Source: Rhodospirillaceae bacterium (GTDB taxonomy: Bacteria; Pseudomonadota; Alphaproteobacteria; Rhodospirillales; Rhodospirillaceae). From it: a stretch of 62,536 bases of DNA. Each line of letters begins with the position of its first letter. Within the stretch, counting starts at the first letter, position 1. Made by a program: the position numbers and the translations under genes. Below, piece after piece: positions 27,097 to 53,173 of the stretch. The notes beneath the pieces were generated by a model, which was not told where the DNA came from, ran no database searches, and worked only from the letters and a program-made list of their open reading frames with translations. The stretch is taken from contig JAIBCD010000013.1 in NCBI GenBank assembly GCA_019694335.1, positions 1-62,536 on the forward strand. The letters are read 5' to 3'.

Positions 27097-27108
27097 ATGT
27101 ATAGTCAT
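27097..27108. promoter_or_regulatory. HutC-type operator site, hisC/LysR intergenic (1)
   Basis: ATGTATAGTCAT is a near-palindrome matching the consensus ATGTMTAGRCAT found upstream of hutC, hutF/hutI and fdsG in this window. It lies 53 bp upstream of the hisC-like start. Confidence 0.55.
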
Positions 27109-27120
27109 ATGTATGCGTTC

Positions 27121-27132
27121 ATGTCTAGGCAT
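27121..27132. promoter_or_regulatory. HutC-type operator site, hisC/LysR intergenic (2)
   Basis: ATGTCTAGGCAT, a second near-palindrome of the same family, lies 24 bp centre-to-centre from the first. It overlaps a possible ATG for the LysR gene at 27121, which supports the downstream GTG start at 27148. Confidence 0.55.
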
Positions 27133-27147
27133 AATGGCGCGGGTCCA

Positions 27148-28125
27148 GTGTCCACGCAGCTTCCTCCGATGCGGGCGGTGCAGGTGTTCGAGGCGGTCGT
27201 GCGCTGCGGCAGCGTCACCGCGGCCGCCGAGGAACTGTGCGTTTCCCCGGGCGCCATCAGCCAGCAGATCCACAATATCGAGAAGGCGCTCAACGTCCGC
27301 CTGTTCGAGCGCTCGGGGCGTTCGCTGGCGCTGACCTCGTGGGGGCGCATTTATTATGAGCGCGTGCGCTTCGCGTTCGAACAGCTGCGTACCGCGCAGG
27401 ATACGCTGAGCCGCGCGCGCTCCAAGCCGGGCATCGTGCTGTCCGCGCTGCCGTCGCTGGCGATCCGCTGGCTGCGGCCCTTGATGCTCCAGTGGCGTGC
27501 CGCGCATCCCGGCGCCGCCGTGCGCCTTGTCGGCACCGACGAGGAAAGCAGTTTGCGCGACGAACAGATCGATTTCCGCATCTCCTACGGAACCGATGTG
27601 CGTCAGTACGAGCATTTCACCGAATTGTTCATCGATACCGTGGTGCCGGCCTGTTCGGCGGAGTTCCTGGCGAAGCATCCCGTGCAGACGGCGGCCGATA
27701 TCCTCGGCAGTCCGCTGATCGACATCGAGTGGGATGTGCGCCACCGGCCGGCGCCGTCCTGGGACGATTGGGCGCGCAGCGCCGGGCTGCCGCAACCGGA
27801 CACCGCAGCGGAACTCGCGTTCTCGCTCTCCAGCGCCGCGATCGACGCGGCGGTGAGCGGCGGCGGTTTCGTGCTCGGGCAGGTCGCGATGATCCACGAG
27901 GACGTGGCGAGCGGGCGGCTGGAGATTCCCATCGACCGGCGCCTGACCATGCCGGCGCCGTATTTCCTGGCGTGGGACCGGGCGGTGCTGGACCGCCCTT
28001 ACGGCGAGGATTTCCGCGCCTTTATCATCGCCGCTGCGCGGCGGCAGGCCGCCCAGTCCGCCGGACGGGCGCCTCTGGCTCCGGCCCGGGCGCGGGTGCA
28101 GCCGTTCCAATCTGGCGCGGCTTGA
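27148..28125 (+). CDS. LysR family transcriptional regulator (GcvA-like)
   Basis: A ~325-residue regulator. The N-terminal helix-turn-helix reads LPPMRAVQVFEAVVRCGSV, then CVSPGAISQQIHNIEKAL and LFERSGRSLALTSWG, typical of GcvA-type LysR proteins. The effector domain follows with IDFRISYGTD and a late GGGFVLGQVAMI. GTG at 27148 gives the usual short lead (VSTQLPP); ATG at 27121 is an alternative. It is divergent from the hisC-like gene and probably controls it, or the hut genes, alongside HutC. Its 3' end overlaps the hutC 3' end by 101 bp in convergent orientation. Confidence 0.88.
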   Translation: MSTQLPPMRAVQVFEAVVRCGSVTAAAEELCVSPGAISQQIHNIEKALNVRLFERSGRSLALTSWGRIYYERVRFAFEQLRTAQDTLSRARSKPGIVLSALPSLAIRWLRPLMLQWRAAHPGAAVRLVGTDEESSLRDEQIDFRISYGTDVRQYEHFTELFIDTVVPACSAEFLAKHPVQTAADILGSPLIDIEWDVRHRPAPSWDDWARSAGLPQPDTAAELAFSLSSAAIDAAVSGGGFVLGQVAMIHEDVASGRLEIPIDRRLTMPAPYFLAWDRAVLDRPYGEDFRAFIIAAARRQAAQSAGRAPLAPARARVQPFQSGAA

Positions 28126-28888
28126 ACGGGCTGACGTTGCCGGCTTTCGATCCGGTGCCGGCCGTGCGTTTGTCGGCGGGCGCGAAGCGGGCGATCAACT
28201 CATGCAGGTGGCCGGGATAGGTGAGCCGCACGAAGGTCACGGTGTGATCCGCGCTCCAGGTGCGGCGTTCGATCACCAGGCACGGCTTGCCGGCCGCGAG
28301 TTTCAAGGCTTCGGCGGCGAGGGCGGAGGCTTCGGTCGCCTGGATGCGGTGTTCGGCCGCGGTCCAGGGGATGTGGCTCATCAGCCATGCGCCCGGCGCT
28401 TGCGCGGCGAAGTCGACCTCGGCGGCTTCCGGCACCGCGGCGACGTTGATCAGGCGTTCCTCGAAACAGAACGGCTGCCGGCCGGCGTAGTGACAGCAGG
28501 TGAGTTCCAGCACCGGGCCGGGCGTCTTGAGGTCGAGCGCGGTACGGTCGCCCTGGCTGCTCTTGCGGCGGCGGCGAATCAGGAGGTCGAAGCTGTAGGG
28601 CAGACCCAACGCCGAAACCTCGGCCTTGATGTCGGGGATCTCGAGCACCGCCGATTGCAGGTGCGGTTTCGAAACGAAGCTGCCGGCCTTGCGGCGGCGC
28701 TCGATCATGTCGGCGTTGGCGAGGTGGGTCAGCACCTTGCTCACGGTCATGCGCGAGCATTTGTACTGCGCCATCAATTCGTGTTCGAACGGGATGCGGT
28801 AACCCGGCGGCCACTCGCCCGAAAGAATCCTGTCGGCGATATCCGTGAGAATCCGCTGGTGTAGCGAAATACTGTCTTTGACGGTCAT
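28025..28888 (-). CDS. hutC: GntR family histidine utilisation repressor
   Basis: A 287-residue regulator of the GntR/HutC subfamily. The winged-helix domain is at residues ~1-75 (HQRILTDIADRILSGEWPPG, YKCSRMTVSKVLTHLANADM, RRKAGSFVS). The UTRA effector domain follows, with CCHYAGRQPFCFEERLIN and ERRTWSADHTVTFVRLTYPG; in this family urocanate is the inducer. A Pro/Ala-rich tail of ~45 residues is unusual and coincides with the overlap with the LysR gene. An operator-like site lies 64 bp upstream of its start, suggesting autoregulation. Confidence 0.9.
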   Translation of the reverse strand: MTVKDSISLHQRILTDIADRILSGEWPPGYRIPFEHELMAQYKCSRMTVSKVLTHLANADMIERRRKAGSFVSKPHLQSAVLEIPDIKAEVSALGLPYSFDLLIRRRRKSSQGDRTALDLKTPGPVLELTCCHYAGRQPFCFEERLINVAAVPEAAEVDFAAQAPGAWLMSHIPWTAAEHRIQATEASALAAEALKLAAGKPCLVIERRTWSADHTVTFVRLTYPGHLHELIARFAPADKRTAGTGSKAGNVSPFKPRQIGTAAPAPGPEPEAPVRRTGRPAAAQRR

Positions 28889-28951
28889 CTACTCTTCGCC
28901 CCGGAGGGCCTCTTGGCTTGCCGAGCCATTATCACATCGATATCCTCGTTT

Positions 28952-28963
28952 ATGTATAGGCAA
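28952..28963. promoter_or_regulatory. HutC-type operator upstream of hutC
   Basis: ATGTATAGGCAA matches the shared 12-bp near-palindrome (ATGTMTAGRCAT) at all but its last base. It lies between the divergently transcribed hutC and symporter genes, so it could control both. Confidence 0.6.
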
Positions 28964-29137
28964 ATGAGCGCCCGCTCAAAGACCCTCGCCCGGGGCAATG
29001 GCGAGCGGTCCTGGAATCGCTCTAGACCACGCGCCGGTCCAGGGGGATCGGCGCAGGGGCCAGGTTTGTTTTAGTCGCATTTTCTACGGCGAACCGCTCA
29101 CTCTTCGCCGCAAAAAGCTTTGTACCGGGGGTCTTTC

Positions 29138-30628
29138 ATGGATTTCGTCGTCATCGCGCTCTACATGGCCGCCATGGTCGCGGTTGGCTTCTGGGCCAAG
29201 GGCAAGGCCAAAAGCGAGTCCGACTACCTGGTGGCCGGGCGGCGGCTGGGCCCCATGCTCTACGCCGGCACCATGGCTGCCCTGGTGATGGGCGGCGGCG
29301 CCACCATCGGGGGGGTGGGACGCGGCTATATCTTCGGCATCTCCGGCATGTGGCTGCCGTTCGCGCTCGGCATGGGCGTGTTCGTGGTCAGCCTGACGAT
29401 CGCGCCGCTGGTCAGCCGGCTCAAGGTCTACACGGTCAGCCAGATGCTGGAATTGCGCTACGGCCCCGGCACCAGCCTGCTGTCGGGCTTCGTGATGATG
29501 AGCTACGCCTTCATGATCGCGGTCACCTCGACCATCGCCTACGGCGCGATCTTCGAGGTGCAGTTCGGCATGACCAAGATCCCGGCCGTGCTGTTCGGCG
29601 GCGGCATCGTGGTGCTGTACTCGGTGCTCGGCGGCATGTGGTCGATCACGCTCACCGATTTCGCCCAGTTCATCATCAAGACCATCGGACTGATGTTCAT
29701 CCTGCTGCCGGCCTCGATCATGGCCGCCGGCGGCCTGGACAACATGCACGCCAAGCTGCCGCCGGAGATGTTCTCGCCCACCAACATCGGTTGGGGCCGC
29801 ATCATCACCTTCTTCATCATCTTCAACCTGTCGATCGTGGTCGGCCAGGACGTGTGGCAGCGCATCTTCACGGCGCGCAGCCCCGAGGTCGCGAAGTGGG
29901 CGGGCGCCGGCGCCGGCATCTACTGCTTTGTCTTCGCCACCTGCGTCGGCCTGATCGGCACCGCGGCGCAGATCGTTCTGCCCGCCGGTATCGAACGCGA
30001 CAAGGTCTACGCCGAGATGGTGAAGGCCACGCTGCCCGAGGGTATTTCGGGCCTGGTGATGGCGGCGGCCCTGGCCGCGATCATGTCGGTGTCGAGCGGC
30101 ACGCTGATCGCCTCGGCCACGGTCGCCAAGGAGGACATCATGCGCGTGCTCAAGCGCAAGAGCCTCGCCGACGCCACCGACGAAACCAGCGACCACAAGG
30201 ACGAGGTCGCCGACAGCCGGTGGTACATCCTGGGCTTCGGTGTTCTGATGATCCTGCTGGCCTGTGTGATGAAGGACGTGGTCACCGCGCTCACCATCGG
30301 CAGCGCCATCGTCGTCACCGGCCTGTTCGTGCCGATCATCGGCGGCATGGTCTGGAGCCGCGGCACGCTGATGGGGGCGGTCGCCGGGATCATCCTCGGC
30401 ATCGTGTTCACTTTCGGCGACATGGCTTACCTGGCGTTCTTCGGCGGCATGTCCGGCGAGGACGCCATCGGCGCCGACGAGCCGGTCTATATCGGCATGC
30501 TGGGCAGCCTGATCGGCTATGTGATCGTGAGCCTGATGAGCGCGCCGACACCGGCCGCGGTGATGGAAGAATGGCTGCGGCGGGCTAAAAAACCCGAGTC
30601 TACGCAGCCAGCTGCTTCATCACCTTAA
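29138..30628 (+). CDS. Sodium:solute symporter, probable histidine or urocanate uptake
   Basis: A 496-residue membrane protein of the SSS family. About thirteen hydrophobic helices are visible, with typical segments VAGRRLGPMLYAGTMAALVMGGGATIGG (in part), LRYGPGTSLLSGFVMM, YSVLGGMWSITLTDFAQF and VGQDVWQRIFTARSP. The ATG at 29138 (MDFVVIALYMAA) is preceded by CCGGGGGTC. Its position between hutC and hutF suggests it imports histidine, urocanate or a related compound; the substrate is inferred only from context. Its 3' end overlaps the hutF 3' end by 29 bp, convergently. Confidence 0.88.
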   Translation: MDFVVIALYMAAMVAVGFWAKGKAKSESDYLVAGRRLGPMLYAGTMAALVMGGGATIGGVGRGYIFGISGMWLPFALGMGVFVVSLTIAPLVSRLKVYTVSQMLELRYGPGTSLLSGFVMMSYAFMIAVTSTIAYGAIFEVQFGMTKIPAVLFGGGIVVLYSVLGGMWSITLTDFAQFIIKTIGLMFILLPASIMAAGGLDNMHAKLPPEMFSPTNIGWGRIITFFIIFNLSIVVGQDVWQRIFTARSPEVAKWAGAGAGIYCFVFATCVGLIGTAAQIVLPAGIERDKVYAEMVKATLPEGISGLVMAAALAAIMSVSSGTLIASATVAKEDIMRVLKRKSLADATDETSDHKDEVADSRWYILGFGVLMILLACVMKDVVTALTIGSAIVVTGLFVPIIGGMVWSRGTLMGAVAGIILGIVFTFGDMAYLAFFGGMSGEDAIGADEPVYIGMLGSLIGYVIVSLMSAPTPAAVMEEWLRRAKKPESTQPAASSP

Positions 30629-31955
30629 AGAAGGCCTGCGAGACGTCACCGCGCGCGCGGTGACGTCCGCCCTCTACCTGCTTCACGCCGTTCACCCAGA
30701 CGCAATCGACGCCGCCGTTGCCGGCGTTGAAAATCCAGGCGTCGAGCAGGGCGTCGTCCTTGGCGCCGGCGAAAGCGGCGTGCCCGGTGTTCAGGCTGAC
30801 GATGTCGGCCGGGCCGCCGGCGGCGAGGCCCGTGAATTCCGCGCCCAAGGCCCTGGCGCCGCCCCGCAGAGCTTGGTCATAGAGCGCGCGGCCGGTGGAA
30901 CCGCCGGGGGGCGCCATGACATTGCGGCCTTGCCGGGCGAGGCGCTGTGAGTATTCCAGGAGGCGCAGTTCGTCCGCCGCGCCGATCTGCACGTTGGAAT
31001 CCGAACCCACGCCGAACCGTCCGCCGGCGGCGGTGAAAGTCGGTGCGTTGAATACCCCGTCGCCCAGGTTGGCTTCGGTGATCGGGCAGATCCCCACTAC
31101 GGCGCGGCTGGCGGCCGTGCGGGTGGTCTCTGCCTCGGTCATATGGGTGGCGTGCACCAGGCACCAACGCTCATCGACCGGTGCGTGATCGAGCAGCCAG
31201 GCGATCGGGCGCTGGCCGCTCCAGGCCACGCAGTCCTCCACTTCGCGCATCTGCTCAGCGATGTGAATATGGATCGGCGTATTGGGGGCGAGGGCGACAA
31301 CGCCAGCGAGTTCCTCGGGGGTGACCGCGCGCAAGGAATGAGGCGCGACACCGACCACGCCGGTGCCCAAGGGTTTCACCGCGCGGCGGCAGCCATCGAG
31401 AAGCTGCGCGTAGCTATCGACGCTATTGATGAACCGGCGCTGGCCCTCGTTGGGCGGTTTACCGCCGAAAGCGGAATGGGCGTAGAACACCGGCAGCAAG
31501 GTCATGCCGAGGCCGGTGTGGGCGGCGGCAGCGGACACCGCGTTGGCCATCTCCGCGATCTCGGCGTAAGGGCGGCCATCCACGTCGTGGTGCAGGTAGT
31601 GGAATTCGCCCACGCGGCTGAAGCCGGCCTCGAGCATCTCGATATAAGCCTGCGCCGCCACGGCGCGGACCTGATCCGGATTCATGGACAGCGCGAGCCG
31701 GTACATCAGCTCGCGCCAACTCCAGAACGTGTCGTTGCCGGTATGGCGGCGTTCGGCGAGGCCGGCCATGGCGCGCTGGAACGCGTGGCTGTGCAGGTTG
31801 GGCATGGCGGGAACCACGACCGCATGGCGCTCGTCGCCGGGGTGCGGCGCGGCGCCGGTTTCAATGCCCGTGATTCGCCCGTCCCGGATGGTGAGCCGGA
31901 CGGCCTGGCGCCATCCGCCTGGAATCAGGGCCTGATCTGCAAAAAGTGACGTCAT
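30600..31955 (-). CDS. hutF: Formimidoylglutamate deiminase
   Basis: A ~451-residue amidohydrolase-superfamily enzyme that converts N-formimidoyl-L-glutamate to N-formyl-L-glutamate plus ammonia. Seen are the N terminus LFADQALIPGGWRQAVRLTI, metal ligands in MPNLHSHAFQRAMAG, the substrate segment FWSWRELMYRLALSMNPDQ, GEFHYLHHD, IHIHIAEQ, LVHATHM and GVGSDSNVQI. The start at 31955 gives the normal family length; a start at 32015 would add 20 unconserved residues. It is divergent from hutI across a HutC-type operator. With hutG it defines the two-step route that releases formate. Confidence 0.93.
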   Translation of the reverse strand: MTSLFADQALIPGGWRQAVRLTIRDGRITGIETGAAPHPGDERHAVVVPAMPNLHSHAFQRAMAGLAERRHTGNDTFWSWRELMYRLALSMNPDQVRAVAAQAYIEMLEAGFSRVGEFHYLHHDVDGRPYAEIAEMANAVSAAAAHTGLGMTLLPVFYAHSAFGGKPPNEGQRRFINSVDSYAQLLDGCRRAVKPLGTGVVGVAPHSLRAVTPEELAGVVALAPNTPIHIHIAEQMREVEDCVAWSGQRPIAWLLDHAPVDERWCLVHATHMTEAETTRTAASRAVVGICPITEANLGDGVFNAPTFTAAGGRFGVGSDSNVQIGAADELRLLEYSQRLARQGRNVMAPPGGSTGRALYDQALRGGARALGAEFTGLAAGGPADIVSLNTGHAAFAGAKDDALLDAWIFNAGNGGVDCVWVNGVKQVEGGRHRARGDVSQAFFKVMKQLAA

Positions 31956-32026
31956 TTCGCCTGCATTTATATAGGAGGCGGCGTCTAAACGCCCCTCGGA
32001 CTCTTTAGCTTGCATCGCAGGTTATT

Positions 32027-32038
32027 ATGTCTATACAT
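32027..32038. promoter_or_regulatory. HutC-type operator between hutF and hutI
   Basis: ATGTCTATACAT is a near-palindrome of the shared family. It is centred ~35 bp before the chosen hutI start and ~77 bp before the hutF start, suitable for joint repression of both divergent units. Confidence 0.7.
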
Positions 32039-32067
32039 TAAATCCAACCCGAATGTTTGGATCCCCG

Positions 32068-33282
32068 ATGGCCCCGCCCAAGACTCCCTCCTTACGCCTG
32101 TGGCGCAACGCGCGGCTGGCCACGCTGGCGGCGCCAGGGCTCGGGGTCGTGGAGAAGGGCGCCGTGGCGGCGCGCGATGGGATCATCGTCTACGCCGGGC
32201 CCGAGGCCGATCTTCCCGCCGATATCGCGCGCGCCGAGGTCACGGACTGCGAAGGCCGCTGGATCACGCCCGGACTGGTCGATTGCCATACCCATCTGAT
32301 CTACGCGGGCAACCGCGCCCATGAGTTCGAACTGCGGCTTGCGGGCGCCAGCTATGAGGAGATCGCGCGCGCCGGCGGCGGCATCGTGTCGTCGGTGAAA
32401 AACCTGCGCGCGGCCTCCGAGCAGGACCTGGTGGCGCAGGCCCTGCCGCGCCTGGCCGCGCTGATCGCCGAGGGCGCGACCACCGTCGAGGTCAAGTCGG
32501 GCTATGGCCTGGATTACGACAACGAGCGCAAATCCCTTCGGGCCGCGCGCACGCTGGGCGAACGGCGCCCGGTCACCATCAAGACCACCTTCCTCGGCGC
32601 CCATGCGGTGCCGCCGGAAGCCAACAAGGATTCCGCCGCGCATATCGCGCGCGTGGTGGAGATGATGCCCAGGATCGCCGCCGAAGGCCTGATCGATGCG
32701 GTCGATGCGTTTTGCGAGGGCATCGGGTTCTCGCCCGCCGAGACCAGGCAGGTGTTCGACATGGCCAAGAGCCTCGGCCTGCCGGTGAAGCTACACGCCG
32801 ACCAGTTGTCCAACCTGCACGGCGCGGCGCTGACAGCGGAATACCGCGGCCTGTCCGCCGATCATCTGGAACACACGGACGATGCGGGTGCCGCCGCCAT
32901 GAGCAAGGCGGGCACGGTCGCGGTACTGCTGCCGGGCGCCTATTATTTCATTCGCGAGACCAAGTTGCCGCCGCTCGACCTGTTCCGCAAACACGGCGTC
33001 GCTTTGGCGCTGGCGACCGATTGCAATCCCGGAACCGCGCCGCTCACGTCGCTGCTGCTCACGATGAACATGGCGGCCACGCTGTTCCGCATGACCGTGG
33101 ACGAGTGCATCGCCGGCGTCACCCGCGAAGGCGCCAAGGCGTTGGGCATGGGCCAGGAAGCCGGAACGCTGGAGCCCGGGAAGTGGGCCGACCTCGCCAT
33201 CTGGAATATCGAGCGGCCGGCCGAGCTGGTCTACCGCATGGGCTTCAATCCGCTGCACGCGCGCGTCTGGAAAGGCCAATGA
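32068..33282 (+). CDS. hutI: Imidazolonepropionase
   Basis: A ~404-residue enzyme that hydrolyses imidazolone propionate to formiminoglutamate. Family features are [10 protein letters not shown] at the N terminus, the metal motif [65 protein letters not shown] and [14 protein letters not shown] at 32068 is preferred because GGA lies 8 bp before it; ATG at 32053 is possible. It is the first gene of the hutI-hutH-hutG-hutU unit and its stop overlaps the hutH start (ATGA). Confidence 0.95.
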
Positions 33283-34814
33283 AGAAAGTCATCCTCAAAC
33301 CGGGAACCAATACCCTCGCCGATTGGCGCGCGATTTATCGTGGCGCGAGCGTCAAGCTCGATCCCTCGTCCGAAGCCTGGGTGGCGGCGGGCGCGGCGGC
33401 GGTCGCGCGCATCATCGCCAAGGGCGAACCGGTTTACGGCATCAACACCGGCTTCGGGAAGCTCGCCAGCGTGCGCATTCCGACGAGCGATCTGGAAAAA
33501 CTGCAAAGCAACATCGTGCTGTCCCATTGCGCCGGCGTGGGCGAACCGATGCCGCGAAACGTCGCGCGGCTGATGATGAGCCTGAAGCTCGCCAGCCTTG
33601 GCCAGGGTGCCTCGGGTATCCAACCCAAGACCTTGGCGCTGCTGGAAGCCATGCTCGACAAGGACGTGATTCCGGTTGTGCCGGCGCAAGGTTCGGTCGG
33701 CGCATCCGGCGACCTCGCACCGCTGTCGCATATGACCGCGGCGATGATCGGCGTCGGCGAAGCCTTCACGCCCGCCGGCCGCCTGCCGGCGAAGGAAGCC
33801 CTCGCGAAAGCCGGCCTCGCGCCGGTGGTGCTGGGCCCGAAGGAGGGGCTCGCGCTGCTCAACGGCACGCAGTTCTCGACCGCCTATGCATTGGCGGGCC
33901 TGTTCGAAGCCGAGTTGCTCTATCAGTCGGGGATCGTCACCGGCGCGCTGTCGACCGATGCGGCGCGCGGGACCGACGCGCCGTTCGATCCGCGTATCCA
34001 TCGCTTGCGCCGCCACGCCGGCCAGATGGAAACCGCCGAGGCTTTGCGCCAACTCTTGAAGGGCAGCGCCATCCGCGCCTCGCACCTGGTGAACGACGAT
34101 CGGGTGCAGGATCCCTATTGTCTGCGCTGTCAGCCGCAGGTGATGGGCGCATGCCTCGACCTGTTGCGCCAGGCGGCCGCCACGCTCGAAACCGAGGCCA
34201 ATGGCGTGTCCGACAATCCGCTGATCTTCGCCACCGAGGACGAAGCCCTGTCGGGCGGCAATTTCCACGCCGAACCCGTGGCCTTCGCCGCCGATATGAT
34301 CGCCCTGGCGCTGTGCGAGATCGGGTCGCTCGCCGAACGGCGCATCGCCATGCTGGTGGATCCCGCGTTGTCGGGACTGCCCGCGTTCCTCACCGGCAAG
34401 CCGGGGCTGAATTCCGGATTCATGATTCCGCAGGTGACGGCGGCGGCGCTGGTGTCCGAGAACAAGCAGAAAGCCTATCCGGCGAGCGTGGATTCCATCC
34501 CGACCTCCGCCAACCAGGAAGACCATGTCTCCATGGCCGCCCACGGCGGACGCCGCCTGCTGCCCATGGCCGAGAACACGGGCGCGGTGATCGCCATCGA
34601 GCTGCTGGCGGCGGCGCAGGCCTGCGACTTCCACCTGCCGCTGACCTTGAGCCCGCCCTTGGAATCCGCGCGCCGCGTGGTGCGCGCGGTGGTGCCGCAC
34701 CTTGACGAAGACCGCCACTTCCAGCCTGACATCGCCAGGGCCATCGAACTGGTGCGCGGCGGCGCGCTCGCGGCTTCGGTGACCGGCGTGACCTTGCCGG
34801 CGGTGGCGCTATGA
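33279..34814 (+). CDS. hutH: Histidine ammonia-lyase
   Basis: A 511-residue enzyme that deaminates histidine to urocanate. The autocatalytic cofactor MIO forms from Ala-Ser-Gly within [15 protein letters not shown] (about residues 140-143). Other family marks are [42 protein letters not shown] and [17 protein letters not shown]. The ATG at 33279 overlaps the hutI stop; the open frame upstream of it lies within hutI and is a shadow. The stop overlaps the hutG start by ATGA. Confidence 0.96.
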
Positions 34815-35629
34815 GCGCGCATCCCTGGCTGACCATTCATCGCGGCGACGGCCCGCTGCTGCTGAGCATGCCGCACACCGGCACCGAACTGGGCGCGTAT
34901 GAAAGCCGGTATGTCTCGCCGTGGATGGCGCGCAAGGACGCGGACTGGTGGGTGGAGAAGCTCTACGATTTCGGCCGCGACCTCGGCGCCACCCTCGTGC
35001 GCACCACCTTGTCGCGCTCGGTGATCGATGTGAACCGCGACCCTTCGGGTGTGTCGCTCTATCCCGGCCAGGCCACCACCGAGCTGTGCCCCACCACCAC
35101 TTTCGATGGCGAGCCCTTATATAGGGACGGCCAGGTTCCCGACGCGGCCGATATCGCCGACCGTCGTTCCAAGTACTTCGATCCTTACCACGCGGCGCTC
35201 GCGGCCGAGGTCGCGCGTCTGAAGGCCGCGCATCCCAAAGTGGTGGTTTACGATTGCCATTCCATCCGCTCGGAAGTGCCGCGCCTGTTCGCGGGGCCGT
35301 TGCCGCATTTCAATATCGGCACCAACAGCGGCAAGTCCTGCGATCCGAAGCTCACCGCCGCGGTCGAGGCCGCCTGCGCCACCACCACCTTCAGCCATGT
35401 CGTCAATGGCCGGTTCAAGGGCGGCTTCATTACCCGCAACCTCGGCAAGCCTGAGAGCAACGTGCACGCCATCCAGATGGAGCTTGCAGCCCGCGGTTAT
35501 CTGCGCGAGATAACCGGCCCGGTCACGCACGCGAACTGGCCGGTGGCTTACGACGAAACCCACGCCGCGCCCATGCGCGCGGCGCTCAAGAATATCCTCG
35601 AGGCTTGCCTCGCCTTCGCTAGAAACTAA
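34811..35629 (+). CDS. hutG: N-formylglutamate amidohydrolase
   Basis: A 272-residue enzyme that hydrolyses N-formyl-L-glutamate to glutamate plus formate, the last step of the HutF branch. Seen are [59 protein letters not shown], and [15 protein letters not shown] followed by HAIQMELA, the conserved arrangement of N-formylglutamate deformylase. It is coupled to hutH by ATGA and lies 10 bp before hutU. The formate product connects this locus to the formate dehydrogenase operon further right. Confidence 0.94.
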
Positions 35630-35639
35630 GGACGCTTCC

Positions 35640-37304
35640 ATGACCCGCATCGACAACGCCCGTAAGATCCGCGCCGCCACCGGCAACCAGATCACCGCCA
35701 AGAGCTGGCTGACGGAAGCGCCCATGCGCATGCTGATGAACAACCTGGACCCGGATGTGGCCGAGAAGCCGGAGGAGCTGGTGGTTTACGGCGGCATCGG
35801 CCGTGCCGCCCGCGATTGGGAGAGCTTCGACCGCATCGTCTCGACCCTGAAGCGTCTCGAAGACGATCAAACCCTTCTTGTGCAATCCGGCAAGCCGGTG
35901 GGCGTGTTCCGCACGCACAAGGACGCGCCGCGCGTTCTGATCGCCAACTCCAACCTGGTGCCGCACTGGGCCACCTGGGAGCATTTCAACGAGCTCGATA
36001 AGAAGGGCTTGATGATGTACGGCCAGATGACCGCGGGCTCGTGGATCTACATCGGCTCGCAAGGCATCGTGCAGGGCACCTATGAGACCTTCGTCGAGAT
36101 GGGCCGTCAGCATTACAATGGCAGCCTCGCCGGCAAGTGGATCCTGACCGCGGGCCTGGGCGGCATGGGCGGCGCGCAGCCGCTGGCCGCCACCATGGCG
36201 GGCGCATCGTGCCTGGCCATCGAGTGCAAGCAGACCAGCATCGATTTCCGCCTGCGCACCAAATACATCGATGTGCAGGCCAAGGACTTGGATGACGCGC
36301 TGGCGATCATCGCGAAGGCCGGCGCCGAGAAGAAGGCGATCTCGGTCGCGCTGCTCGGCAACGCGGCTGAGATCCTGCCGGAAATGGTGCGCCGTGGCGT
36401 GCGCCCGGACGCGGTCACCGACCAGACCTCCGCCCACGACCCGGTCAACGGTTACCTGCCCAAGGGCTGGACCCTGGCCAAGTGGGACGAGATGCGCGAG
36501 AAGAATCCGGCGGCGGTGCGCAAGGCCGCCAAGGCCTCCATGGCCGAACACGTGCGCGCCATGCTGGCGTTCCACAAGGCGGGCGTGCCGACGGTCGACT
36601 ACGGCAACAACATCCGGCAGATGGCTCTGGAAGAGGGCGTCACCGACGCCTTCGCCTTCCCGGGGTTCGTGCCGGCCTATATCCGCCCGCTGTTCTGCCG
36701 CGGCATCGGCCCGTTCCGTTGGGCGGCGCTGTCCGGAGACCCCGAGGACATCTACAAGACAGACGCCAAGGTGAAGGAGATGCTCGCCCACGATAAGCAC
36801 CTCTGCAACTGGCTCGACATGGCCCAAAAGCGCATCAAGTTCCAGGGCCTGCCGGCGCGTATTTGCTGGGTGGGCCTGGGCGTGCGCCACAAGCTCGGCC
36901 TCGCCTTCAACGAGATGGTGGCCAAGGGTGAACTCAAGGCGCCGATCGTCATCGGCCGCGACCACCTCGATTCTGGTTCGGTGTCCTCGCCCAACCGCGA
37001 GACCGAAGCCATGAAGGACGGCTCCGACGCCGTGTCCGACTGGCCGCTCCTGAACGCGCTGCTCAACTGCGCCTCGGGCGCGACCTGGGTGTCGTTGCAC
37101 CACGGCGGCGGCGTCGGCATGGGCTTCTCGCAGCACTCCGGCATGGTGATCGTGTGCGATGGGACTCCCGAAGCCGCGAAGCGCATCGAACGCGTGCTGT
37201 GGAACGATCCCGGCACCGGCGTCATGCGTCACGCCGACGCGGGCTACGACATCGCCATCGACTGCGCGCGTGAACAGGGCCTCGATCTGCCGAGCCTGAA
37301 GTAG
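35640..37304 (+). CDS. hutU: Urocanate hydratase
   Basis: A 554-residue NAD-dependent enzyme (urocanase) converting urocanate to imidazolone propionate. The sequence is highly conserved: [52 protein letters not shown] for NAD binding, [25 protein letters not shown], and [19 protein letters not shown] near the C terminus. The standard family length is kept. It is the last gene of the hutIHGU unit; a strong palindrome begins at its stop codon. Confidence 0.96.
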
Positions 37305-43446: not shown

Positions 43447-43451
43447 GGCTC

Positions 43452-44834: not shown

Positions 44835-44872
44835 CTCCAACCTGCCCAACTCCAACCTGATTGAGGGACACC

Positions 44873-45376: not shown

Positions 45377-45399
45377 GCGTTTTCTCCAGGGGGATATCG

Positions 45400-46560
45400 A
45401 TGATCAAATCGTTCGTGCGCATCGGCGCCGCGCTGCTCGCGCTCGCCGGGCCGGTGCTTGTTCTTTGCGGGCCTTCGGCCGCGCGGGCCGCCGAAGGCCC
45501 GCCCGCCAATCCGGACATTTCCAAGTACAAATACGATCCCACGTGGCCGAAGCTGCCGATCGCCAACAACTGGGCCATCGGCCTGATCGGCGGCGTGCAT
45601 GTGGATGCCAAGGATCACGTCTGGATCTATCACAGCACCAAATGGCTTTCGCCGCGCGACCTGGGTGCCGCGCAGACCCCGCCGTCGGGCAAGTGCTGCC
45701 TGCCGGCGCCGCCGATCCTCGAATTCGACCAGGCCGGCAATATCGTGCACGCCTTCGGCGGGCCTCCCAAGGAGGGGTCGGGCGACAGCTATGAGTGGCC
45801 CACCGACGAGCACGGCCTGTTCATCGACTACAAGGGCAACATCTGGGTCGGCGGTAGCAAGACCCGCAAGGGCCAGGATGGCGTCGAACCCGACGGCATG
45901 GTGTTGAAGTTCAGCCCCGAGGGCAAATTCCTGCTCCAGGTCGGCAGCCGCGGCCCCACCAAGGGCAGTACCGACACCACGCGTCTGTCGGGTGCGGCCA
46001 ATGTCGCGGTCGATCCCAAGACCAACGAAGCCTATATCGCCGACGGCTACGGCAATCACCGCGTGATCGTGGTGGACGCCGATACCGGCGCCTTCAAGCG
46101 CCAGTGGGGCGCCTACGGCAAGCCGCCCACGGACCAGGACATCGGGCGCTACGATCCTGCGCAGCCGCCCGCGCAGCAGTTCCGCATCGTCCACTGCGTG
46201 CGCATTGCCAGGGATGGGCTCGTGTATGTCTGCGACCGCCTGAACAACCGCATCCAGGTGTTCAAGACCGATGGCACCTTTGTGCAGGAGTTCATCTACC
46301 GCAAGGAGACCAAGGGTTCAGGTGCGGTCGGCACCATCGCCTTCTGGCCGGACGCTACCCAGAGCAAGATCCTGCTCAACGACCCGGGCAACTTCGAGGT
46401 GCACCTGATCAACCGCGCGGATGGCAAAGTGCTCGGCTCGTTCGGGCACTACGGCGCCTACGGCGGCGAGTTCGACCGCAATCACGAGTCTCAGCTGGAT
46501 TCGAAAGGGAACCTCTATGTCTCCGGCGACCAGCGTTTGCAGAAGTTCACGCTGAAGTAA
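45400..46560 (+). CDS. Exported NHL-repeat six-bladed beta-propeller protein
   Basis: A 386-residue protein with signal peptide (IGAALLALAGPVLVLCG, ending near ARAAEG). NHL-type propeller units are visible: GVHVDAKDHVWIYH, GLFIDYKGNIWVGGS, ANVAVDPKTNEAYIADGYGNHRV, CVRIARDGLVYVCDRLNNRIQVF and SQLDSKGNLYVSGDQRLQKF (each shorter than a full blade). It resembles peptidyl-hydroxyglycine lyase-like propellers but no active site can be assigned. GGGGGATATCG lies just before the ATG. It ends the cluster and overlaps mobA by 14 bp in convergent orientation. Confidence 0.85.
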   Translation: MIKSFVRIGAALLALAGPVLVLCGPSAARAAEGPPANPDISKYKYDPTWPKLPIANNWAIGLIGGVHVDAKDHVWIYHSTKWLSPRDLGAAQTPPSGKCCLPAPPILEFDQAGNIVHAFGGPPKEGSGDSYEWPTDEHGLFIDYKGNIWVGGSKTRKGQDGVEPDGMVLKFSPEGKFLLQVGSRGPTKGSTDTTRLSGAANVAVDPKTNEAYIADGYGNHRVIVVDADTGAFKRQWGAYGKPPTDQDIGRYDPAQPPAQQFRIVHCVRIARDGLVYVCDRLNNRIQVFKTDGTFVQEFIYRKETKGSGAVGTIAFWPDATQSKILLNDPGNFEVHLINRADGKVLGSFGHYGAYGGEFDRNHESQLDSKGNLYVSGDQRLQKFTLK

Positions 46561-47134
46561 GCCGCGCTTCGGCCGCGGCAAGGTCGCTGGGCGTGTTGAT
46601 GTTGAAGAACGGGTCTGGGCCGTCGTCGAAATTGGCGACGGCCCATTTTCGTGTCCGGGCGAAGGACTCCACGCCGCGCATGCGGGTCTGGGCGAGGGTG
46701 TATTCGAGATCCTGCATGACCTGGGGCGACCACAGGGCGATCGCCGGCTGAACCGCGCCGCGCCATGCGGCCATGACCACGTCGGGGTGCTCGCGTTCCG
46801 ACACAAACATGAGTTTTTCGACCAGGTTCGGCGGCAAGAACGGCGTGTCCGCCGGTGTCGAGATGGCCGGACCTCGCGCCCAGCGCAGACCGGCCAGAAT
46901 CCCCGACAGCGGTCCTTCGCCCGGAAACGGATCGCCGACCACCGGCAAGGACCAGGCGGCGAAACGCGCCGCGTCTCCGGTCGCGTTGATCGCCAAGGCG
47001 CCTACTTGCGGGCGCAAGGCCTCGATGATGTGAGAGAGCAGGGGGCGGCCGCCCAGCGAGAGCAGCGTCTTATCGCCCCCGCCCATGCGCGTGGCGCGGC
47101 CGCCGGCGAGGATGATGCAGGCGGGCTTTATCAT
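46547..47134 (-). CDS. mobA: Molybdenum cofactor guanylyltransferase
   Basis: A 195-residue nucleotidyltransferase that joins GTP to molybdopterin to make the MGD cofactor. Features are CIILAGGRATRMGGGDK at the N terminus (GTP-binding G-rich loop with Arg and Lys), ATGDAARFA, VVGDPFPGEGPLSGILAG and STPADTPFLPP (PADxPF metal site), then NINTPSDLA at the end. The length is normal. It overlaps fdsD by 4 bp and is the last gene of the formate dehydrogenase operon, supplying its cofactor. Confidence 0.93.
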   Translation of the reverse strand: MIKPACIILAGGRATRMGGGDKTLLSLGGRPLLSHIIEALRPQVGALAINATGDAARFAAWSLPVVGDPFPGEGPLSGILAGLRWARGPAISTPADTPFLPPNLVEKLMFVSEREHPDVVMAAWRGAVQPAIALWSPQVMQDLEYTLAQTRMRGVESFARTRKWAVANFDDGPDPFFNINTPSDLAAAEARLTSA

Positions 47135-47352
47135 TGGGCTGGCCGCAGGCTGCGCACGGCAGCGAGCACGCGGCTGTCGAGCCCGGTGCCGCCGGCCTGT
47201 TCATAGGCCAGGATCGCTTTCTTCATGCGCGGCTCCCAGAAGCTGCGAATGTGACCGGCGATGCTGGCCACGGACGCGGCTTCGTCCTGATAAGCGAAGG
47301 CCTTGCCGATCTGGTTGGCCATATATACGAGCTTCTTGTCGTCCACGTTCAA
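47131..47352 (-). CDS. fdsD: Formate dehydrogenase delta subunit
   Basis: A 73-residue protein matching the small FdsD subunit of soluble NAD-dependent molybdenum formate dehydrogenases: [16 protein letters not shown], then [20 protein letters not shown], the conserved 'HI..FW.PRM' signature. It is needed for assembly or stability of the Fds complex rather than catalysis. It sits between fdhD and mobA with 4-bp overlaps on both sides. Confidence 0.92.
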
Positions 47353-48179
47353 TCCATCAATATGCGTTCGGGCGCGGTGAAGACTTCGAATCCGTCGTCG
47401 CGCGCCACGGCCGCGAGGGTGAGATTGGCCCGTTCCGCCGTGCGGATGGCGAGCGCGGTGGGCGCCGAGATCGCCACCAGTAATGGCGCGCCCATGATCG
47501 CGGCCTTTTGCACCATCTCGACCGAGACACGGCTGGAGATCAGCACGACACCACCGCCGGCCTTAAGCCCGCGCCGCGCCAGGGTTCCGGCGAGTTTGTC
47601 CAGGGCGTTATGGCGGCCAACGTCTTCGCGCACGGCCGCGAGGCCGCCGTTCCAGAACGCGGCGGCATGCACCGCGCGCGTGGCATGATTGAGTTCCTGC
47701 GCCGCACCCAGGGCGGCCAAGGCCGTGACGATCTCCGCCGCCGGTAGGCGGAGATCGTTTTTAATCACGGGCAGCGGGCGCATGGCCTCGGTCAGGCTTT
47801 CCAGGCCGCACAGTCCGCAGCCTACGGGGCCGGCCATCTGGCGGCGGCGCTCCGTGAAGCGTTCGGCGCTGTGCGTGGCCAGTTCCATGCGCAGTTCCAC
47901 GCCGAGGTCGCCGGGGACAACCTCGAGCGCGGTGATTTCGGAACCGGCGGAGACGATGCCCTCGGACAACGTGAAGCCGACCGCGAAGTCTTCCAGGTCG
48001 GCGGGCGAGGCCATCATCACCGCGTAAGAAAAGCGGTTGTAGGTGAAGGCAATGGCGGTTTCCTCGGGGACCGCGCGCAGGCCGGCGGCGCGGTGGCCAT
48101 GGCGGAACGAGGTGCGCGGCGCGGTCACCACCGCAGCCGGAAGGGCAGGCGTGTCCGCGCGCGTTTCCGCCGGCATCAT
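47349..48179 (-). CDS. fdhD: Formate dehydrogenase accessory sulfurtransferase
   Basis: A ~276-residue protein that passes sulfur to the bis-MGD cofactor of formate dehydrogenase. Seen are [34 protein letters not shown] (in parts), the cysteine pair in [10 protein letters not shown] (about residue 120), [15 protein letters not shown] and [14 protein letters not shown]. The ATG at 48179 overlaps the fdsA stop (ATGA); an earlier start at 48242 would lie inside fdsA and is rejected. Confidence 0.93.
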
Positions 48180-51013
48180 TCCGCCGCGGGCGTGGCGATA
48201 CGGGTGTTGGCTTCGCTCATCTCGCGATAACGCTCCTGCCATTCGCTCGGGCCGTTGGAGAGCAGTACCTGCACGGCCGTCACCTTGTACTCGGGGCAGT
48301 TGGTAGCCCAGTCGGAGTAGTCGGTGGTCACCACGTTGATCTGGGTGTCGGGGTGGTGGAAGGTCGTATACACGACGCCCGGCGCCACGCGGTCGGTGAT
48401 GCGCGCGCGCAAGGACGTGGCGCCGGCGCGGCTTTGCACCTTCACCAGGTCGCCTTCGCGCACGCCGCGGCTTTCGGCGTCGAACGGATGAATTTCCAGC
48501 CGGTCTTCCTCGTGCCAGACCACGTTCTGGGTGCGGCGTGTCTGGGCGCCGACATTATACTGGCTGAGGATGCGCCCGGTGGTGAGCAGCAGCGGGAAAC
48601 GCGCCGAGGTGCGCTCGTCGGTCGGCACATACTCGGTGATCACGAACTTGCCCTTACCCCGGACGAAGCCGTCGATATGCATGATCGGCGTGCCGGCCTC
48701 GGCCTTGTCGTTGCAGGGCCATTGCACCGAGCCGAGTTCATCGAGCTTCTTGTAGGAAACGCCGGCGAACGTCGGCGTGGCGGTGGCGATCTCGTCCATG
48801 ATCTCGGACGGGTGGCTGTAGTGCATCGCGAAGCCCATGGCCTTGGCGATGGCGAGGGTGGTTTCCCAGTCGGCCTTGCCGGCCAAGGGCGGCATCACCT
48901 TGCGCACGCGGCTGATGCGGCGCTCGGCGTTGGTGAAGGTGCCGTCCTTCTCCAGGAACGACGAGCCCGGCAGGAAGACATGCGCGAACTTGGCGGTCTC
49001 GTTGAGGAACAGATCCTGCACCACCAGGCATTCCAGGGCGCTCATGCCCGCCACCACATGGGCGGTTTCGGGGTCCGATTGCACCATGTCCTCGCCCTGG
49101 ACGTAGAGGCCCTTGAAGCTGCCGTCGACGGCGGCGTCGAACATGTTGGGGATGCGAAGCCCGGGTTCGGATTCCAGCGCGACGCCCCATAGGCTTTCGA
49201 ACATGGTGCGGGTGGCGGCGTCGCTGACATGGCGGTAGCCCGAGAATTCGTGCGGGAACGAGCCCATGTCGCAGGAGCCCTGCACGTTGTTCTGGCCGCG
49301 CAAGGGGTTCACGCCCACGCCCCGCCGGCCGATGTTGCCGGTGGCCATGGCGAGGTTGGCCATGCACATGACCATGGTGGTGCCCTGGCTGTGTTCGGTG
49401 ACACCCAGGCCGTAGTAGATGGCGCCGTTGCCGCCGGTGGCATAAAGGCGCGCGGCCTTGCGGATGTTCTCGGCCGGAACGCCGGTCATGCCCGCCACGG
49501 CTTCGGGGCTGTTGTGGGCCTGCGCCACGAACGCCGCCCAGCTCTGGAACTCGTCCCAGTCGCAGCGTTCGCGCACGAAGGTCTCGTTCACCAGGCCTTC
49601 GGTGACGATCACATGGGCCAGGGCATTGGCCATGGCGACATTGGTGCCCGGGAGCAGGGGCAGGTGATAGTCGGCCTCCACATGCGGCGTGCGCACCAGG
49701 TCGATGCGGCGCGGATCGATGACGATCAGCCTGGCACCTTCGCGCAGGCGCTTTTTCATGCGCGCGGCGAATACCGGATGACCATCGGTGGGATTGGCGC
49801 CGATCACCACGATCACGTCGGCCTCGTCCACGGAATCGAAGTCCTGGGTGCCGGCGGAGGTGCCGAAGGTGGTTTTAAGACCGTAGCCCGTGGGCGAATG
49901 GCAGACCCTGGCGCAGGTGTCGACGTTGTTGTTGCCGAACACGGCGCGCACCAGTTTCTGCACCAGGTAGGTCTCCTCGTTGGTGCAGCGCGACGAGGTG
50001 ATGCCGCCGATGGCGCCCTTGCCATAGGTCTTCTGGATGCGCAGGAATTCGGAGGCGGTATGCGCGATCGCTTCGTCCCAGGAAACTTCACGCCAGGGAT
50101 CGGTGATTTTGGCGCGGATCATGGGCTTGGTGATGCGGTCCTTGTGGGTGGCGTAGCCCCAGGCGAAACGGCCTTTCACGCAGGAATGGCCGTGGTTGGC
50201 CTTGCCGTCCTTGTAGGGGACCATGCGCACCACTTCATTGCCGCGCATCTCGGCCTTGAAGGCGCAGCCGACGCCACAATAGGCGCAGGTGGTCACAACG
50301 GAGTGCTCGGGCTGGCCGGTCTCCACCACCGATTTCTCGATCAGCGTGGCGGTCGGGCAGGCTTGCACACAGGCGCCGCACGAGACGCATTCGGACTTCA
50401 GGAATTCGCCCATGCCGGGCGCGACCTTGGACTCGAAGCCGCGGCCCTGGATGGTAAGGGCGAAAGTGCCTTGCGTTTCCTCGCAAGCGCGTACGCAGCG
50501 CGAACAGACGATGCACTTGGAGGGATCGAAGTCGAAATACGGGTTGGAGATGTCCTTGGGCGCGGTGAGGTGGTTCTCGCCCTCGAAGCCGTAGCGCACA
50601 TCGCGCAGGCCCACGGCGCCCGCCATGTCCTGGAGTTCGCAGTCGCCGTTGGCGGCACAGGTCAGGCAGTCGAGCGGGTGGTCGGAGATGTAGAGCTCCA
50701 TCACGCCGCGGCGGAGTTTTTTGAGTGTCGGGGTCTGGGTGGACACCTGCATGCCCGCCGCGACCGGGGTGGTGCAGGACGCGGGCGTTCCGTTGCGGCC
50801 CGCGATCTCCACCAGGCACAAGCGGCACGAGCCGAAGGCGTTCAGGCTGTCCGTGGCGCATAGCTTGGGGATCGCGACGCCGCTGTCCATGGCGGCGCGC
50901 ATGATCGAGGTGCCCGCCGGCACGGTCACCGCCGCGCCGTCGATGGTGAGAGTCACCATCTCCGTGGCGGTGGCGGCGGGCGTGCCGTAGTCGGTTTCCT
51001 GAACGAGACCCAT
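48176..51013 (-). CDS. fdsA: NAD-dependent formate dehydrogenase alpha subunit
   Basis: A 945-residue catalytic subunit. In order: an N-terminal 2Fe-2S domain ([21 protein letters not shown], in parts), the His-Cys cluster region ([15 protein letters not shown]), two 4Fe-4S motifs ([12 protein letters not shown] and [13 protein letters not shown]), then the molybdopterin domain opening with [10 protein letters not shown]...SCVKGRF. The Mo ligand is a cysteine in [11 protein letters not shown] (about residue 370), so no selenocysteine is used. The C-terminal MGD-binding region is complete. It oxidises formate to CO2 and sends electrons through the clusters to FdsB. It lies 9 bp after fdsB. Confidence 0.96.
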
Positions 51014-51022
51014 GACTGAACC

Positions 51023-52582
51023 CTAGGCGACATCGGCGAGGGACCGGGGCCTGGCCCGGAAGTCCTCGGGGAAATGGGTGAGCGCGCTCAACACCGGATA
51101 GGGGACAAAGCCCCCCAGGGCGCACAGCGAGCCCAATTTCATTGTACTACATAAGTCTTCCAGCAGCGCGATCTGCGCATCGACCTCTATCCCCTTGAGA
51201 ATGCGGTCGATCACTTCCTGGCCGCGTACGGATCCGATCCTGCAGGGCGTGCATTTGCCGCAGGATTCGATGGCGCAGAATTCCATGGCGAAGCGGGCCT
51301 GGCGCAGCATGTCGACGGTGTCGTCGAACACCACCACGCCGGCATGGCCGATCAGCCCGTCCTTGGCGGAGAAGGCTTCGTAGTCGAATGGCGTGTCGAA
51401 CAGGTTGGGCGGGAAATAGGCGCCGAGCGGGCCGCCCACCTGCACCGCGCGTACGGGACGCCCGGAAGCCGTGCCGCCGCCGATGTCCATGACGATCTGG
51501 CCCAGGGTCATGCCGAACGGCGCTTCATAGAGCCCTGCGTGTTTCACATTGCCGGCGAGCTGGATCGGAATGGTGCCGAGCGACCGCCCGGTACCCAGAC
51601 TCTTATAGGTATCGGCGCCGTTCGCCAGGATCGCCGGCACTGAGGCCAGACTGATGACATTGTTGACGGCAGTGGGTTTCCCGAACAGACCATGATGCGC
51701 GGGCAGCGGCGGCTTCGCGCGCACCTGGCCGCGCCGGCCTTCGAGGCTTTCCAGCAGTGAGGTTTCCTCGCCGCAGACATAAGCTCCCGCGCCAACCCGC
51801 ACTTCCATATCGAAGGCATGGGGGGAATCCATCACCGATGCGCCGAGCAGGCGCGCTTCACGGGCGTGCTGGATGGCGCGGGTCATGATGCCGACGGCGA
51901 TGGGGTATTCCGAACGGATGTAGATGAAACCCTTGGTGGCGCCTGTGGCGATGCCGGCGATCACCATGCCTTCGATCACCGCGAGCGGATCGCCTTCCAT
52001 GATCATGCGGTCGGAGAAGGTGCCGGAGTCGCCTTCGTCGGCATTGCAGACGACGTATTTCTGGCCGGCTTTCGCGTCCTTCACCGTCTTCCATTTGATG
52101 CCGGTGGGGAACCCCGCACCGCCGCGCCCGCGCAGGCCGGAGGCGGTGACGGCGGCGAGTATGGCGTCGGGGCCGAGTTTGAGCGCCTGGGCGAGGCCTT
52201 TGAGGCCGCCCGCTGCGCGGTAGTCGGCGATGGACAAGGGATCGATACGTCCGCAACGCGCGAAGGTCAGGCGGGTTTGCGGCTTGATGAAGGGATGATC
52301 GTCGACGCGGCCCACGGACAGCCCGTGCTTGCCGCCGCCGAGGAATTTGGCGTCGAACAGGCCGGGCACGTCCGCCGCCTTGACCGGGCCATAGGCCGTG
52401 CGGCCGGTGGGCGTCTCCACCTCCACCAGCGGCTCCAGCCAGTGCATCCCGTGCGAACCGGTGCGCGTGATCGTGAGCGCAATCCCCCGCGCCAACGCCT
52501 CGCGCGCCATCGCCTGCGCGACATCGTCAGCGCCCAGCGCGACGGCGGCGGAGTCCAGTGGAATGAAGATCCGCGCGCTCAT
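51023..52582 (-). CDS. fdsB: Formate dehydrogenase beta subunit (NADH-binding, NuoF-like)
   Basis: A 519-residue diaphorase subunit. An N-terminal ~110-residue thioredoxin-like extension (MHWLEPLVEVETPTGRTAYG) precedes the NuoF-like core: GLRGRGGAGFPTGIKW for FMN (about residue 154), CNADEGDSGTF, GAGAYVCGEETSLLES for NAD, and the 4Fe-4S ligands ESCGKCTPCRIG (about residue 440) plus a later cysteine in DLCSTMKLGSLC. It hands electrons from FdsA to NAD+. The start at 52582 overlaps the stop of a five-codon reading frame that links it to fdsG. Confidence 0.96.
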   Translation of the reverse strand: MSARIFIPLDSAAVALGADDVAQAMAREALARGIALTITRTGSHGMHWLEPLVEVETPTGRTAYGPVKAADVPGLFDAKFLGGGKHGLSVGRVDDHPFIKPQTRLTFARCGRIDPLSIADYRAAGGLKGLAQALKLGPDAILAAVTASGLRGRGGAGFPTGIKWKTVKDAKAGQKYVVCNADEGDSGTFSDRMIMEGDPLAVIEGMVIAGIATGATKGFIYIRSEYPIAVGIMTRAIQHAREARLLGASVMDSPHAFDMEVRVGAGAYVCGEETSLLESLEGRRGQVRAKPPLPAHHGLFGKPTAVNNVISLASVPAILANGADTYKSLGTGRSLGTIPIQLAGNVKHAGLYEAPFGMTLGQIVMDIGGGTASGRPVRAVQVGGPLGAYFPPNLFDTPFDYEAFSAKDGLIGHAGVVVFDDTVDMLRQARFAMEFCAIESCGKCTPCRIGSVRGQEVIDRILKGIEVDAQIALLEDLCSTMKLGSLCALGGFVPYPVLSALTHFPEDFRARPRSLADVA

Positions 52583-52612
52583 GCTTTGCCGCTCATGCCT
52601 TGCCGCTCATGG
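52575..52612 (-). repeat. 14-bp tandem triplication creating a five-codon minicistron between fdsG and fdsB
   Basis: GCTCATG-containing 14-bp units occur three times. On the minus strand they give the end of fdsG (MSGKA then TGA), a second ATG AGC GGC AAA GCA TGA at 52596-52579, and the fdsB start (ATG AGC GCG). The first ATGA (52596-52593) overlaps fdsG and the second (52582-52579) overlaps fdsB, so ribosomes could pass by two successive stop-start steps. Confidence 0.8.
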
Positions 52613-53090
52613 GTTTTTCTTGGGCGAGAGCGGTCAGGCCTTTCGCATCGGCGCGGCCGATCGGCCGCCCGTCGAACATGGCCGAAGGCGCGCAGGAACA
52701 CAGGCCCAGGCAGAACACCGGCTCCAGGGTGATACGGCCATCGGCGGTGGTCTCATGCCAGTCGACGTTCAGCGCGCCGCGGACCTCGGCGGCGAGTTTG
52801 TCCGCGCCCACCGCCTGGCAGGCTTCGGAACGGCATAGCTTGAGCACATGCGCGCCGGCCGGCGCGCGGCGGAAGTCGTGATAGAACGACACCACCCCAT
52901 GCACCTCGGCGCGCGACAGATTGAGTGTGTCGGCGACCATTTCGATGGCCCGGTCGGCGATGAAGCCGAAGGCCGCTTGCAGGGCATGCAGGACCGGCAG
53001 CGCCGCCCCATCCGTGGCTTTGTGAGCGTCGATGATCGCTTGCGCGCGGGTTTCGTCCCAGGCCGTTGCCGGCATGAAAAAGTCCATCAA
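52593..53090 (-). CDS. fdsG: Formate dehydrogenase gamma subunit (NuoE-like)
   Basis: A 165-residue 2Fe-2S protein of the NuoE/thioredoxin-like family. Cluster ligands are CRSEACQAVG (about residue 85; C-x4-C) and CLGLCSCAPSAM (about residue 127). The N-terminal helices VLHALQAAFGFI and HGVVSFYHDFRR are standard. It takes part in electron transfer with FdsB. The start at 53090 (or 53087/53075) lies about 72 bp from an upstream HutC-type operator. It is the first gene of the fdsG-fdsB-fdsA-fdhD-fdsD-mobA operon. Confidence 0.95.
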   Translation of the reverse strand: MMDFFMPATAWDETRAQAIIDAHKATDGAALPVLHALQAAFGFIADRAIEMVADTLNLSRAEVHGVVSFYHDFRRAPAGAHVLKLCRSEACQAVGADKLAAEVRGALNVDWHETTADGRITLEPVFCLGLCSCAPSAMFDGRPIGRADAKGLTALAQEKPMSGKA

Positions 53091-53161
53091 AACAATGGGA
53101 AGCGGGCGCTGTCCGCGCTTTCGTCCTCCCCGACCGGCTCAGTCTGCACCTTCCATTTATT

Positions 53162-53173
53162 ATGTCTAGACAA
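53162..53173. promoter_or_regulatory. HutC-type operator upstream of fdsG
   Basis: ATGTCTAGACAA contains the perfect palindrome TGTCTAGACA, the best-matching member of the shared family. It lies in the 147-bp divergent region between fdsG and the acetylpolyamine amidohydrolase-like gene, which starts at 53238. Confidence 0.6.

Follow-up and report, generated by a model that had tools for sequence, protein, structure and literature searches.

HutC regulons are a textbook example of a local catabolic switch, and the HutF-HutG branch of histidine breakdown is usually explained by the extra ammonia that it yields. The stretch analysed here, 62,536 nucleotides of a Rhodospirillaceae bacterium (contig JAIBCD010000013.1; hereafter the window), carries hutC with its histidine utilisation (hut) genes, an fdsGBA formate dehydrogenase operon and five 12-bp near-palindromes. 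According to the accessible text of Leyn et al. 2016 (PMC5343134), the content of the proteobacterial HutC regulon varies by lineage, and in two gammaproteobacteria the histidine biosynthesis operon has joined it. As in our locus, HutC is described there as repressing hut genes, transporters and, in some lineages, a TonB-dependent receptor; the main text of that study never uses the word formate, whereas the regulon predicted here adds fdsGBA and a second hutH-like gene. In Pseudomonas fluorescens SBW25 and P. aeruginosa HutC likewise recognises a TGTA-N2-TACA operator, its binding is disrupted by urocanate and its targets extend past the hut genes, as stated in the portions consulted of PMC12977541 and PMC12772324. 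Unlike here, no formate dehydrogenase target is named in those portions; PMC12977541 does not use the word formate in its main text, and PMC12772324 uses it solely when describing the pathway. Titles and abstract openings gave no precedent for HutC control of a formate dehydrogenase, and one is possible in subscription papers and the RegPrecise tables, which lay outside that scope. The formate dehydrogenase locus itself resembles the Cupriavidus necator type in its order fdsG, fdsB, fdsA, with fdhD and mobA near, and differs from it in that the window shows a HutC-type operator upstream and no recognised fds-linked regulator.

We consider it likely, from the sequences compared below, that the five near-palindromes are HutC operators and that the HutC regulon has been extended to FdsGBA in this uncultured genus; the switch for histidine breakdown would then very probably also turn on the formate-burning enzyme. 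The initial annotation had placed the sites at 27097, 27121, 28952, 32027 and 53162, each between divergent genes, and all five are confirmed as real, with flanks that agree with the gene calls. Two form a pair in the gap between a hisC-like gene and a gene for a GcvA-like LysR-family regulator, with ATGTATAGTCAT (27097..27108) as the upstream member and ATGTCTAGGCAT (27121..27132) as the second. The predicted HutC operators ATGTATAGGCAA (28952..28963) and ATGTCTATACAT (32027..32038) lie in the hutC/symporter and hutF/hutI gaps, and the predicted HutC-type operator ATGTCTAGACAA (53162..53173) lies upstream of fdsG, with a divergent HDAC-family gene on its other side; none of the five is assigned to a strand. 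The 27121 site begins with an ATG in the LysR reading frame, but is most likely intergenic, since an alignment to three relatives points to a LysR start farther downstream. The sequence ATTATGTATAGTCATAT in this hisC/LysR promoter is identical in 4/4 aligned genomes. The 12-mer of the 28952 site is identical in G210, G214 and, distant from hutC, in G215, and the hutF/hutI site is found at the same place in six relatives (G204, G205, G208, G210, G214 and G215).

The sites were scored with a symmetric matrix of 16 columns. Its training set consisted of 14 hut sites, taken from the hutC side and the hutF/hutI gap in seven genomes of the genus and amounting to five distinct sequences. The sites at 28952 and 32027 were thus part of the training set, while the fds site and the hisC/LysR pair (53162, 27097 and 27121) were held outside it. 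In the window, ranks 1 to 5 are exactly the five sites, with scores of 19.0 to 22.6; 53162 and 32027 share the top score of 22.64, and the best non-site, at rank 6, reaches 11.91. A position weight matrix had been proposed in the initial annotation as a check; the one used here, trained on hut sites alone, puts all five sites highest. Counted as strand-matches at ≤2 mismatches, the enrichment is modest (10 in the window; 3.9 ± 2.1 in dinucleotide shuffles, one of 100 shuffles getting to 10), and by score it is evident. Across the whole genome of the organism (4,018,042 bases in 228 contigs) there are 6 occurrences of the palindromic pattern WTGYMTAKRCAW, and its reversed form is absent. The window accounts for 4 of the 6; the other two, at C16:7675 and C136:3393, are strict matches to which no gene could be assigned.

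The site upstream of fdsG was followed through 19 genomes of the genus, with FdsG and HutC called present at E ≤ 1e-20. Nine have FdsG and seven have HutC, all seven of the latter having FdsG as well, and the remaining ten have neither. The site stands upstream of fdsG in 7/7 genomes with both proteins, as ATGTCTAGACAA in six and as ATGTCTATACAA in G204, and is absent in both genomes with FdsG and no HutC (G202, 76% complete; G209, 97% complete). With kinship ignored, Fisher's test gives p = 0.028 for the site against HutC (7/7 vs 0/2) and p = 0.0055 for fds against hut (7/8 vs 2/11). The seven aligned upstream regions have little in common except a block around TTTTGTCTAGACATA. In the window, the 240-bp stretch before fdsG contains 229 12-mers. 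For 214 of these none of the six relatives has a near match, and four are matched in all six; every 12-mer found in at least three relatives overlaps the site, and the site is the only conserved block in these 240 bp.

These comparisons bear on three other explanations of the fds site. One is that it is a chance match, as might be suggested by the raw 12-mer counts, which exceed the shuffles only modestly. However, fdsG loci from outside the genus, 256,764 bases in total, yielded no score ≥17, which puts the 95% upper bound for a chance hit in 240 bp at 0.0028 per genome, compared with the 7/7 observed, and the alignment shows that the seven upstream regions have diverged. A chance match was rejected on the matrix ranking, the scan of outside loci and the 12-mer conservation, and we regard it as extremely improbable. 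Another is that the site, which in the window stands between fdsG and the HDAC-family gene, regulates the latter instead of fds. A search with the HDAC protein (tblastn) gave no match in the fds stretches of six relatives (L172, L174, L177, L262, L263 and L264), and all six keep the site though their divergent neighbours differ, the next recognised divergent gene beside fds being hpaI in two of them and a DUF1592-family gene in one. Since the site persists where no HDAC gene was found beside fds, it serves fds; the HDAC gene was ruled out as its target, and that explanation is largely refuted and very improbable. The third grants that HutC binds the fds site, but places fds under the control of formate or some other signal, with a small effect of histidine. 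Formate has other cellular sources, and the fds genes of Cupriavidus necator are thought to be controlled by the LysR regulator FdsR, which counts in its favour. Across the seven genomes, however, no second conserved block was seen within 240 bp upstream of fdsG, and we consider this explanation quite improbable.

The identity of the presumed regulator is in line with HutC control of the five sites. The product of hutC (28025..28888, reverse strand), a GntR/HutC-family histidine utilisation repressor (TIGR02018, 295.6 bits, cut-off 220), has a GntR DNA-binding domain and a UTRA effector domain (99.8 bits). The genome yielded no second UTRA-domain match, and therefore no paralogue of the HutC subfamily was found that might compete for the sites. 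The annotation had described HutC as binding TGT..ACA-type dyads; the operator given for Pseudomonas in the consulted part of PMC12977541 is TGTA-N2-TACA. The HutC-subfamily consensus in the available text of PMC4494728 is GTMTAKAC, with 4 nt between GT and AC; it is matched exactly at 53162 and 32027, whereas 28952 and 27121 have GC instead of AC in one half and 27097 has TC. Rhizobiales hut loci with a related HutC (80 loci) mostly carry ATGTATATACAT or ATGTATAGACAT, a minority being without a strict site. In the seven HutC proteins of the genus the helix residues around RMTVSK are kept, with overall identity down to about 45%, and strict sites average 5.6 per genome in the seven genomes with HutC compared with 1.75 in the 12 without (G212 counted among the latter).

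Another regulator with a similar operator, such as the GcvA-like LysR protein encoded from 27169 or an FCD-type GntR protein, might instead bind the fds site, the likeness then reflecting family geometry or cross-talk. The hisC/LysR promoter, with its two close and strongly conserved sites, speaks for this, as does a LysR paralogue of G204 and G205 that is preceded by two sites spaced 20 bp from each other (L253:7675-7706 and L254:4603-4634), an arrangement that would fit self-binding by LysR. Yet the core of the sites is the HutC-subfamily consensus, in which 4 nt separate GT from AC, and does not have the spacing given for the FadR subfamily in the same portion of PMC4494728; one and the same matrix also fits the sites beside hutC and between hutF and hutI; and in G204 the orthologous LysR gene has no upstream site scoring ≥15, while the fds and hutF/hutI sites are there. 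On balance another regulator appears unlikely. The proposal of the initial annotation, joint control of formate disposal and histidine breakdown by HutC, thus gains comparative support from the distribution of the site with HutC, the single conserved block and the consensus match.

Several observations weigh against this extension of the HutC regulon or restrict it. The seven genomes are not independent, because they are related, and the FdsG proteins of G202 and G209, which have no site, are more distant (52-53%). G212 has a site before a hutH paralogue and no HutC was found there, though HutC may be lost from this 71% complete assembly, since hutH genes are present. The genome of the organism holds 15 places at ≤1 mismatch, 8 of them unexplained, and it may be the LysR protein and not HutC that acts at the hisC/LysR pair. 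Promoter scans found no sigma-70-like promoter pair near three of the sites, and for this reason repression by occlusion is taken from what the family does. Outside the genus, a score ≥17 upstream of fdsG was found in 0/45 entries with both HutC and FdsG; the fdsG gene of G219, the only other genome of the family with both proteins, also has no site.

The 45 entries comprise 15 reached through HutC loci and 30 from a sample of 385 genomes of the class, and may not all be distinct species. In that sample FdsG was found in 66 genomes (E ≤ 1e-25) and HutC in 73 (E ≤ 1e-40), and no site lies upstream of fdsG in any of the 65 genomes with FdsG other than that of the window (30 with HutC, 35 without). 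The best outside score upstream of fdsG is 16.1 (G156). Two loci cut by contig ends (L142 and L207) were covered by the whole-locus scan, with no score ≥17. Identical places mark G150 and G214, G151 and G210, G152 and G215, and G153 and G219 as the same species. Besides the genome of the window (G000), 27 family members have FdsG; 7 were counted as having HutC (E below 1e-60) and 20 as lacking it, 6 of the latter (G091, G115, G137, G143, G172 and G195) having weaker HutC-like matches. Weak, NuoE-like FdsG matches (e.g. G123, G127, G147, G154 and G162) were left out of this count, and G166 has none. The expectation that the site be conserved upstream of fdsG in hutC-bearing relatives therefore holds inside the genus, in 7/7 genomes, and not in the genomes examined outside it, and the link between fds and HutC would be a lineage-specific extension. 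On a single contig of G219, which belongs to another genus of the family, fdsG and fdsB are followed by a MobA-like gene and then a histidine-ammonia-lyase-like gene (L178:252-4735), with no fdsA between; the HutC-type site here directly precedes the lyase gene, not fdsG.

Gene names in the window are backed by NCBIfam and Pfam profile scores against curated cut-offs, which HutF, HutI, HutH, HutG, HutU, FdsG, FdsA, FdhD and MobA all exceed. The HisC-like aminotransferase (25923..27044, reverse strand) is slightly under its cut-off (TIGR01141, 264 bits, cut-off 276.6), and the GcvA-like LysR-family regulator (27169..28125, forward strand, start inferred from alignment) reaches 230 bits with NF008352, cut-off 288; the 3' ends of its gene and of hutC overlap over about 100 bases (28025-28125). 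On the other side of hutC lies an SSS-family sodium:solute symporter (29138..30628, forward; PF00474), which likely takes up histidine or urocanate, judging from its gene position. The catabolic genes that hutC adjoins are hutF for formimidoylglutamate deiminase (30600..31955, reverse; TIGR02022, 653.9 bits) and, all on the forward strand, hutI for imidazolonepropionase (32053..33282; TIGR01224, 451.6 bits), hutH for histidine ammonia-lyase (33282..34814, start approximate; TIGR01225, 682 bits), hutG for N-formylglutamate deformylase, the formate-releasing step (34811..35629; TIGR02017, 409 bits), hutU for urocanate hydratase (35640..37304; TIGR01228, 982 bits) and hutD (37356..37931; PF05962, 183.7 bits). 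As HutF and HutG are both encoded, the formate-releasing deformylase branch named in the initial annotation is predicted to be present. After hutD follows a Rieske oxygenase with a VanA_C domain (38073-39134), which all genus members examined have next to their hut operon and which might demethylate methylated histidines. A DUF1592/DUF1552 (PSD, HXXSHH) gene pair lies between hut and fds at 40430-43446; similar pairs are found again close to hut and, in G215, next to fds.

The genes of the fds locus are all on the reverse strand: fdsG for the gamma subunit of NAD-dependent formate dehydrogenase (52593..53075; NF004638, 225.5 bits, cut-off 198), fdsB for the NuoF-like beta subunit (51023..52582), fdsA for the catalytic molybdenum subunit (48176..51013; TIGR01591, 948 bits, cut-off 666), fdhD for the formate dehydrogenase sulfurtransferase (47349..48242; TIGR00129, 190.7 bits, cut-off 140.9) and mobA for molybdenum cofactor guanylyltransferase (46547..47134; TIGR02665, 174.7 bits, cut-off 151.9). 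The FdsB score (TIGR01959, 402 bits) is under the NuoF cut-off, as expected of a relative. By the FdsG and FdsA cut-offs, together with the position of fdsB between fdsG and fdsA, the locus is predicted to encode an FdsGBA NAD-dependent formate dehydrogenase.

Sites elsewhere in the genome point to a wider predicted regulon. One at C126:8171 lies upstream of a gene of the aromatic amino acid lyase family (PF00221; L183:8237-9748), whose product is above the cut-off of the histidine ammonia-lyase subfamily (NF006871) and below that of the hutH equivalog (TIGR01225). This hutH paralogue is at least 90% identical within the genus and occurs in seven genomes, with a site upstream in 7/7. Another, at C140:16688, lies upstream of a TonB-dependent receptor gene (L184:4596-7661), where there are two HutC-type sites. 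The closest relatives of this receptor adjoin the hut operon in G204, G205, G208 and G215, with sites upstream in G204 (two copies), G205 and G215, the upstream DNA being cut off in G208. Of 20 TonB receptor loci 19 were scored, and 5 have a site upstream; at least one (L385) is without upstream DNA.

The sites and their conservation, the families of the genes and the consensus match are observed; from them we infer that HutC binds at fds, represses it and is released by urocanate. In the absence of histidine, a HutC dimer on the GTMTAKAC-type palindromes would repress hutC and the symporter gene, hutF, hutIHGUD and fdsGBA. When urocanate accumulates, the urocanate-sensing HutC would be released, giving joint expression of all targets. 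Histidine would be imported and broken down once HutC is gone, HutF and HutG would convert formiminoglutamate to glutamate, ammonia and formate, and FdsGBA would oxidise the formate to CO2 with NAD+, giving NADH.

It is tempting to extend this to a closed histidine-to-CO2 regulon, in which one urocanate-sensing repressor presides over outer-membrane import by the TonB receptor, transport across the inner membrane, both ammonia-lyases, all five steps of the route and the formate dehydrogenase, formate then counting towards the energy gained from histidine instead of being waste; we put this forward as a tentative idea that is rather doubtful as a whole. The Rieske oxygenase could then open a side route in which methylated histidines are demethylated, and the formaldehyde released would likewise end up as formate. 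If HutC control of FdsGBA is true, the cell would couple the disposal or energetic use of a one-carbon product to its source, and the HutF-HutG branch would repay NADH too. The locus would also be a case of lineage-specific regulon growth, in which an operator was gained upstream of a co-occurring operon and kept in seven genomes amid changing surroundings and neighbours.

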